This document shows positions 16,930 through 62,145 of a DNA stretch of 64,000 bases, piece after piece. Each line of letters opens with the position of its first letter. Within the stretch, counting starts at the first letter, position 1. The DNA lies in NCBI GenBank assembly GCA_015065165.1, contig SVQU01000002.1, positions 1 to 64,000 of the forward strand. The letters are read 5' to 3'. The position numbers and the translations under genes are program-made. The notes beneath the pieces are model-generated. The model saw nothing but the letters and a program-made list of their open reading frames with translations. It made no database searches and had not been told where the DNA came from. Source of the DNA: Oscillospiraceae bacterium. GTDB lineage: Bacteria > Bacillota > Clostridia > Oscillospirales > CAG-382.

Positions 16930-17254
16930 TTTTTCACCGCCCACGATATAGGTTTGTTTTAGTTCATACCCTATACCCGCGAGGTACAAGGTTTTTAGAA
17001 ATTTGTGTTTAAAGCGTTCCTTATCAAATTTCAAGGTTATTTATACGTGTCTTATTGCGGGTCGTCGGGGACGCCGACCCCTACAGAACTCAAGCACCCT
17101 CGCCCTACAGTAGTAAAATATTTTTCCGAAAATGTAATTTTCGGGCACTAAAAGTTTTTTGGGGGGTTGGGGTCCCCGCAAAATATGGTTTTGCGGGGTA
17201 ATTCAGGGGGATTTTTGCAAAAATCCCCCTTTATAAAAATTATAAAAAATTCAA
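16930..17254. repeat. Intergenic repeat block (REP plus compound element)
   Basis: No gene seen. A GTAG-footed REP-like hairpin lies at 17055-17085 (reverse orientation). A compound element covers 17129-17235: a CCGAAAATG/ATTTTCGG hairpin, GTTTTTTGGGG, a GGGGTCCCCGCAAAA hairpin (17170-17200), then AGGGGGATTTTT/AAAAATCCCCCT, which can act as terminator for the upstream ABC genes. Confidence 0.75.
17055..17085 (-). repeat. REP-like hairpin, GTAG foot
   Basis: Reverse-complement copy of the GTAGGGGTCGGCGTCC type hairpin that also lies inside the RAYT gene at 30864. Confidence 0.7.
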
Positions 17255-30719: not shown

Positions 30720-31352
30720 TTGGAAAATAAATTACCAAAACGGAAAAATACGCGTTTAAAGGATTTTGATTATAACACCGAGGGTGTGTATTTTATAACG
30801 ATATGCACGCAGGATAGAAGAAATATTCTTTCCCGTGTCATTACCCCTCAAAATCCAAAAAACGTAGGGGTCGGCGTCCCCGACGACCCGCAAAAAGACA
30901 ATCACGTTTATCTAAACGCCACGGTAGAATTGTTACCAAAAGGAATAATTGCGGATAAATACATAAACCAATTGGATGCATTTTACAACGATATGTCCGT
31001 AGAAAATTACGTTATAATGCCAAATCACGTTCATTTGTTGTTGTGGGTGAAATCGGAGGGTAACGGAAACGGAACGTCGAGGACGCCGTTCCCTACAATA
31101 CAAAATTCGGGGATGAACTCGGAGAGGGGCGGAACGTCGAGGACGCCGTTCCCTACAATACAAAATTCGAAGGTTTCTCGTTTTGTTTCAACCTTTAAAC
31201 GATTTTGCGATAAAGAATACGGGCGAAATATTTGGCAAAAATCCTTTTACGACCACGTGATACGAAACCAAGAGGACTACGAAAAGCATATCGATTATAT
31301 ATGCAACAACCCCGTTTGTTGGGAATTTGACAAATTATATTCGGATGAATGA
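30720..31352 (+). CDS. REP-associated tyrosine transposase (RAYT, Y1/HUH family)
   Basis: A 210-residue single-strand transposase of the IS200-like Y1 family. It has the N-terminal RLKDFDYNTEGVYFITICTQ block, the HUH metal site HVH (103-105) in MPNHVHLLLWV, and the C-terminal IWQKSFYDHVIRN and YICNNP blocks containing the candidate nucleophile Tyr. RAYTs act on REP hairpins rather than carrying their own IS ends. Three REP-like sequences lie inside the ORF and are translated in frame: one at residues about 48-59 and two copies of GTSRTPFPTIQNS (118-130, 138-150) exactly between the HUH site and the Tyr helix. The start is TTG at 30720 with a weak ribosome-binding site, so the start is uncertain. 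It sits 12 bp after the DUF1015 gene. Confidence 0.88.
   Translation: MENKLPKRKNTRLKDFDYNTEGVYFITICTQDRRNILSRVITPQNPKNVGVGVPDDPQKDNHVYLNATVELLPKGIIADKYINQLDAFYNDMSVENYVIMPNHVHLLLWVKSEGNGNGTSRTPFPTIQNSGMNSERGGTSRTPFPTIQNSKVSRFVSTFKRFCDKEYGRNIWQKSFYDHVIRNQEDYEKHIDYICNNPVCWEFDKLYSDE
30864..30895 (+). repeat. REP-like hairpin inside the RAYT gene
   Basis: GTAGGGGTCGGCGTCC followed by its partner arm; the same sequence recurs intergenically at 58478 and, inverted, at 17055. Confidence 0.8.
31071..31109 (+). repeat. REP-like hairpin inside the RAYT gene, tandem copy 1
   Basis: GGAACGTCGAGGACGCC followed by GTTCCCTAC and then ACAAAATTC. Identical to the copy 60 bp downstream. Confidence 0.85.
31131..31169 (+). 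repeat. REP-like hairpin inside the RAYT gene, tandem copy 2
   Basis: A perfect repeat of 31071-31109; the core is also present at 58295 and 61884. Confidence 0.85.
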
Positions 31353-58162: not shown

Positions 58163-58230
58163 CGGAACGTCGAGAAAATGGGGTTCCCTGAAAATGCTTG
58201 CATTTTTAGGGTTAATACGCCGTTCCCTAC
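58163..58230 (-). repeat. REP with nested hairpin module
   Basis: Arms CGGAACGTCGAG and CGCCGTTCCCTAC enclose GGGGTTCCCTGAAAATGC/GCATTTTTAGGGTTAA. Near-identical to 62078-62145. Confidence 0.8.
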
Positions 58231-58294: not shown

Positions 58295-58321
58295 CGGAAC
58301 GTCGAGGACGCCGTTCCCTAC
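58295..58321 (-). repeat. REP-like hairpin, GTAG foot
   Basis: Same core as the two copies inside the RAYT gene. It is the uninterrupted counterpart of 58163. Confidence 0.8.
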
Positions 58322-58477: not shown

Positions 58478-58509
58478 GTAGGGGTCGGCGTCCTCGACGA
58501 CCCGCAAAA
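58478..58509 (+). repeat. REP-like hairpin, GTAG foot
   Basis: GTAGGGGTCGGCGTCC class, one base from 30864-30895. Confidence 0.8.
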
Positions 58510-61883: not shown

Positions 61884-61910
61884 CGGAACGTCGAGGACGC
61901 CGTCCCCTAC
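61884..61910 (-). repeat. REP-like hairpin, GTAG foot
   Basis: Same class as the RAYT internal copies, one change in the lower arm. Confidence 0.8.
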
Positions 61911-62077: not shown

Positions 62078-62145
62078 CGGAACGTCGAGAAAATGGGGTT
62101 CCCTGAAAATGCTTGAATTTTTAGGGTTAATACGCCGTTCCCTAC
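62078..62145 (-). repeat. REP with nested hairpin module
   Basis: Arms CGGAACGTCGAG and CGCCGTTCCCTAC enclose GGGGTTCCCTGAAAATGC/GAATTTTTAGGGTTAA. Confidence 0.8.

Follow-up and report, generated by a model that had tools for sequence, protein, structure and literature searches.

Clostridial RAYT genes with a matched inverted pair of REP sequences inside the coding region

A clade of clostridial RAYT genes probably carries the REP substrate of its own enzyme within the coding region, in the form of a matched inverted pair, an arrangement by which enzyme and substrate would be inherited together. We assign this reading, which is drawn from comparison of sequences, a probability of about 0.6. 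In this layout, loop 1 holds the REP in direct and loop 2 in inverted orientation, with the HUH codons between the two and the GTAG ends facing outward as in a REPIN. The RAYT protein would bind these in-gene hairpins in single-stranded DNA, as with dispersed REPs, and the pair would stand in for the flanking REPs of other RAYT genes, with the result that enzyme and substrate would be co-inherited. The two copies would be kept matched by conversion or template switching, together with selection for a hairpin that the enzyme still recognizes. A counterpoint to this reading is that the two loops of the RAYT gene in the window (the whole 64,000-nucleotide stretch of DNA analyzed, from an Oscillospiraceae bacterium) carry different stem types.

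The window gene and its three REPs

The window gene (30720..31352, + strand) is an ORF with a TTG start that encodes 210 amino acids and has a DUF1015 gene on one side and valS on the other. The sole NCBIfam match of its product is NF047646 (REP-associated tyrosine transposase; E=5e-19), with a score of 68.6 bits that lies below the curated cutoff of 80; the same profile is matched by 21/21 members of the homologue alignment. The match to PF01797 is weak (E=0.0072). H103, H105, Y193, and N197 are invariant across the 21 aligned homologues, which covers both histidines of the HUH motif (codons H103-V104-H105, 31026..31034, +) and the putative catalytic tyrosine of the YIxNNP motif (codon Y193, 31296..31298, +). 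The protein reads NHVH, WQ, and YICNNP at the key motifs that the main text of PMC6006769 gives for subclass 2.4 (NH[IFV]H, WQ, and YIxNNP), matches by which the gene, a RAYT (TnpA-REP) of the Y1 HUH kind, resembles subclass 2.4 / RAYT group 4. Profile comparison to solved structures pointed to 4ER8 (TnpA-REP; E=4.5e-12), a RAYT bound to a REP hairpin and the nearest solved-structure relative, which was also the top Foldseek match (E=1.8e-4) of an AlphaFold model of the window protein. This model was built from two sequences only, has low confidence (mean pLDDT of 60.6), and was used for the coarse fold and the disordered loop alone. The expected core is present, and loop-2 residues 115-147 (pLDDT <50) appear disordered, in agreement with the proposal of the sequence-only reading that the hairpins occupy a tolerated loop.

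That reading had described a RAYT with three in-frame REPs; the coordinates it gave for the gene hold, and all three REPs are there. REP 1 (GTAGGGGTCGGCGTCCCCGACGACCC; 30864..30889, +) is direct, lies in loop 1 after beta1 and before the HUH strand, and encodes V49-G-V-G-V-P-D-D-P57; its position and frame are common to most homologues. Two identical inverted REPs, copy a (31071..31096, −) and copy b (31131..31156, −), occupy loop 2, where the gene strand codes for GTSRTPFPT. These two sit between HUH and Tyr, as had been claimed, and REP 1 belongs to another loop, upstream of HUH. The tandem arrangement in loop 2 (31070..31169, +) consists of an exact unit of 40 bp, rather than the 39 bp first reported, at 31070-31109 and 31130-31169, and its 60-bp start-to-start period does preserve the reading frame. 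Because this unit contains RAYT-specific TIQNS codons, the second loop-2 copy is attributed to local tandem duplication, and a fresh REP insertion as its source is ruled out. The stems of the two loops (GTC/GAC in loop 1, AAC/GTT in loop 2) are different yet compensated. No REP closely flanks the gene.

A direct/inverted pair flanking HUH in related genes

Homologous RAYT genes were gathered from the same order and phylum (n=113 in the fuller set). In 77 of them HUH is flanked by the pair, loop 1 holding the direct REP and loop 2 its inverted match, with dozens of REP types represented; this proportion describes this clade and not all RAYTs since the same alignment steered the homologue search. 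Seven further genes carry a REP in loop 2 only, two in loop 1 only, and 27 in neither. The pair is thus not essential to the fold, as 27/113 homologues are free of REPs and 9 have a REP in just one of the loops. With the pair shared by 77/113 homologues, for the most part at one position and in one frame, the window gene does not represent a recent self-insertion in this genome, and the earlier idea that the transposase had inserted its substrate into its own gene is wrong or incomplete in this respect. Pair-bearing genes are spread over the homologue tree, the support of which is low (18/110 branches starred).

For the pair test, we compared, gene by gene, the DNA from beta1 to HUH with the reverse complement of the DNA from HUH to WQ, using 100 codon shuffles as reference. 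The loop-1/loop-2 match beat all 100 shuffles in 72/102 genes, and it typically extends over 24-30 bp at >85% identity. The frame is constant in 57/61 genes for the GTAG start of loop 1 and in 59/72 for the CTAC end of loop 2, and the in-gene pair has an outer span of 194 bp (median). No own-type REP was found within 400 bp on either side of 65 of the 76 pair-bearing genes, and the REPs are therefore internal, not flanking as in a classical REPtron. The pair is absent from the non-clostridial plasmid homologues of Leptolinea, Spirosoma, and Chloroflexota. A scan of viral contigs found no relatives, and the scan of genome contigs for relatives returned just one.

An artefact of metagenome-assembled genomes is unlikely, as many genomes share the pair and a named isolate, Monoglobus pectinilyticus (NZ_OY725736.1), has it too, with 28/28 matching positions. 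The Monoglobus RAYT (L180; NZ_OY725736.1 155300-155797) lies between two genes for site-specific DNA-methyltransferases, and its annotated CDS begins downstream of the loop-1 REP.

DNA-level constraint, type switching, and dispersed REPs

The constraint on the pair acts at the DNA level. GTA is the Val codon of loop 1 in 75/76 genes and GGG the Gly codon in 73/76, while the Pro of the loop-2 PT is CCT in 68/69; elsewhere in the same genes these codons account for 26% (GTA), 21% (GGG), and 23% (CCT) of choices and third positions are mixed. As the genes are related, binomial values for this fixation are not independent. REP copies are 94% identical within a gene vs 55% on average between genes, and mismatches between loop 1 and loop 2 of the same gene (4.6%, 8.4%, and 4.4% at the first, second, and third codon positions) show no wobble concentration. 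Among stem pairs that differ between the two copies, 21 carry changes in both bases and remain paired, a further 5 became G-T through a one-sided change, and in 9 a one-sided change abolished pairing, with 5 of the 9 in a single gene that has an indel. These counts were made in a fixed register, since minimum-free-energy folding settled on an alternative helix for the GGCGTCC type. The refuting result named by the sequence-only reading was an insert with conserved amino acids and diverged nucleotides, and the codon test gave the opposite. The coding sequence in these loops thus obeys a DNA-hairpin constraint and the reading frame at once. As derived from the frames, the wobble positions of the direct and the inverted REP coincide on the same hairpin bases.

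Sister genes can switch REP type in both loops together. The near-sisters L007 and L009 (89% core identity) have REPs that differ at 7 of 24 sites in loop 1 and at 9 of 24 in loop 2, and each gene's own pair matches at 23/24. Extra in-gene copies, gained for instance in L009, L121, and L176, originate as local duplications whose periods are multiples of 3: tandem gains were found in loops 1 and 2 only, and they have such periods in 14/14 cases vs 11/31 in flanking DNA. Variation in copy number with the frame kept was among the outcomes that the sequence-only reading had proposed to look for in homologues; for its further suggestion that insert length tunes activity, we found no evidence. The clade would supply natural enzyme-substrate pairs by the dozen, some of them in near-sisters that have switched type; these can be read from sequence alone, making specificity determinants directly testable by swaps. 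RAYT-REP coevolution is an open question, for which each gene here would record its own substrate in writing. Downstream of one gene (L004), 599-720 bases from the ORF start, lies a tandem array of 22-bp REP fragments whose period is not a multiple of 3, unlike the in-frame periods inside genes.

Related sequences also occur outside the gene, as had been noted. The window holds 9 REP sites vs 0.01 expected, and the 1.67-Mb genome holds 45 sites of the window REP family vs 0 for a reversed control pattern. Dispersed copies in the window include one with a GTC stem outside coding-like ORFs (17061..17084, −), one with an AAC stem of the same type as the loop-2 copies (58298..58321, −), one with a GTC stem of the same type as the loop-1 copy (58478..58501, +), and a further one at 61887..61910 (−). 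The stem triplet differs among related genomes in a compensated manner (e.g., ACA/TGT, GTC/GAC, and AAC/GTT). The in-gene REP type predicts the genomic REPs, as established over 295 genomes of the order. All four genomes with the GCGCGCATTGCGCG type in their RAYT have at least 13 copies, and 11/291 of the others have any copy (p=4e-6); likewise, copies of the window REP family outside the RAYT occur in 9/10 genomes with that in-gene type vs 33/285 others (p=1e-7). One genome (G120) is an exception, where the in-gene type is not dispersed even if 3 mismatches are allowed, and the internal pair is therefore not dependent on an abundant resident REP family.

Some dispersed elements of the window are nested hairpins, in which the REP apex is swapped for another palindrome (CCCTGAAAATGC..GCATTTTTAGGG; 58164-58230, −), with a second site at 62124-62145 (−); the GTAGGGAACGGCGTATTAACCC end of the nested-hairpin REP has two occurrences in the window. 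The same genome (G000) contains a copy of another REP type, GTAGGGGCGATTCACGAATCGCCC (C8, ~79925), which is the in-gene type of L012 and L160, and it has a single RAYT despite this copy.

Competing explanations

Homogenization without function would yield much the same pattern as an embedded substrate. An ancient REP/inverted-REP pair in two tolerant loops would have been matched, with no benefit, by template switching between inverted repeats (quasi-palindrome correction) and by gene conversion involving genomic REPs. As expected of such a process, correction extends to the hairpin arms as well as to the distant inverted copies; the apparent disorder of the loop-2 stretch in the model and the loss of the pair in scattered lineages also fit. 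However, GTA and GGG are fixed in nearly all genes across divergent types, for which mutation alone is insufficient, and the genomic REP families follow the in-gene type. On balance, we regard homogenization as a distinct possibility, albeit not a likely one.

A stronger form of the embedded-substrate reading would make the in-gene pair the master copy of each REP family, that is, an obligate internal REPIN where new types arise, switch along with enzyme specificity, and then spread, with RAYT action on its own gene (e.g., single-strand excision of the HUH-coding segment) limiting its activity. We put this extension forward tentatively and hold it to be unlikely, although self-targeting by the window RAYT, which had also been suggested earlier, is plausible.

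The pair might alternatively serve autoregulation, the RAYT protein repressing itself by binding to the hairpins of its mRNA or of its unwound gene. Nearly all pair-bearing homologues do have the substrate within the gene, flanking REPs are rare, and the hairpins are stable (median of −9.5 kcal/mol vs −2.9 kcal/mol for shuffled sequences). However, the GTAG strand is the message strand in loop 1 only, whereas in loop 2 the recognized strand is the template, and the G-T pairs of some types (e.g., GCGCGCATTGCGCGTCC) turn into A-C mismatches in the loop-2 message. This possibility seems quite unlikely.

Repeated chance landing, the view closest to the sequence-only reading, is very doubtful. It would have REPs insert frequently and survive only in frame in tolerant loops, for which the extra copies of L009, L121, and L176 and the known occurrence of REPs within unrelated genes (PMC3733652) might speak. 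The position, orientation, and frame of the pair are nonetheless mostly constant over dozens of types, which largely refutes this view for the conserved pair; moreover, G120 has in-gene copies without dispersed ones, and the tandem copy in the window duplicates RAYT-specific sequence. Nor was a coding-like ORF found over the dispersed REPs examined in the window's genome, an observation against frequent landing in genes generally that is a weak test for foreign genes, as these could escape it (the RAYT itself falls below the codon-score threshold).

Finally, a protein-level element, whereby the loops would encode conserved peptides (VG..VPD.P and G.SRTP.PT) and resemble each other in DNA only secondarily, is hardly tenable: these peptides recur in close homologues but are wholly different between types while the hairpin architecture persists, and the codon test rules this explanation out (fixation extends to synonymous sites, and the differences within a gene show no wobble bias).

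Relation to known REP systems

In-frame REPs in RAYT genes are already known. In 2018, Quentin et al. reported them for genes of subclass 2.4, as a rule in the interval from HuH to Y, and proposed that they lie in a peripheral region of the protein (PMC6006769); the main text also mentions an 8-amino-acid insertion at the end of alphaB, which it does not call a REP, and its sample stressed Cyanobacteria and Bacteroidetes. As far as that account goes, the clostridial genes resemble subclass 2.4 / RAYT group 4 in the HUH, W, and Y motifs, the variable beta3-alphaC insert with in-frame REPs, and the GTAG REPs with a GGG/CCC stem foot. They differ from its main-text description in the matched direct/inverted pair that flanks HUH and switches type in concert. 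In the literature consulted, including the main text of PMC6006769, we found no description of the matched direct/inverted pair flanking HUH, its concerted switching, or the codon evidence, although Figures S6 and S10 of that paper may show part of this.

The classical REPtron, exemplified by E. coli TnpA-REP (4ER8), has a related HUH-Y1 enzyme, GTAG-tagged hairpins, and dispersed cognate REPs, as here, but its REPs flank the gene instead of lying inside it. Intragenic GTAG/CGTC REPs and Rickettsia palindromic elements are likewise palindromes translated in frame within genes, in their case assorted housekeeping genes (PMC3733652). Unlike the Rickettsia elements, the repeats described here reside in the gene of an enzyme whose family acts on them, and no other coding-like ORF of the window's genome was found to contain them. 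The recurrent peptides VGTGVLDCP and GQSRTPVPT in these Clostridia proteins are accounted for as REP-encoded.

The likeness to a REPIN concerns orientation only, as known here from sequence: the REPs are inverted with their GTAG ends outward. Unlike in a REPIN, the spacer of the in-gene pair is protein-coding. Several dispersed inverted pairs in another genome (G090) do resemble a REPIN family; all are spaced 57 bp start-to-start (e.g., C1:43748/43805, C5:36716/36773, and C7:41767/41824), compared with the 194-bp median span of the in-gene pair, and they have mixed stems, GCT and GAC. In the window's own genome (G000), several neighboring dispersed REPs have GTAG ends that face inward at 100-200 bp, opposite to the in-gene pair (e.g., C21:21993/22124, C18:12625/12788, and C42:58300/58478).
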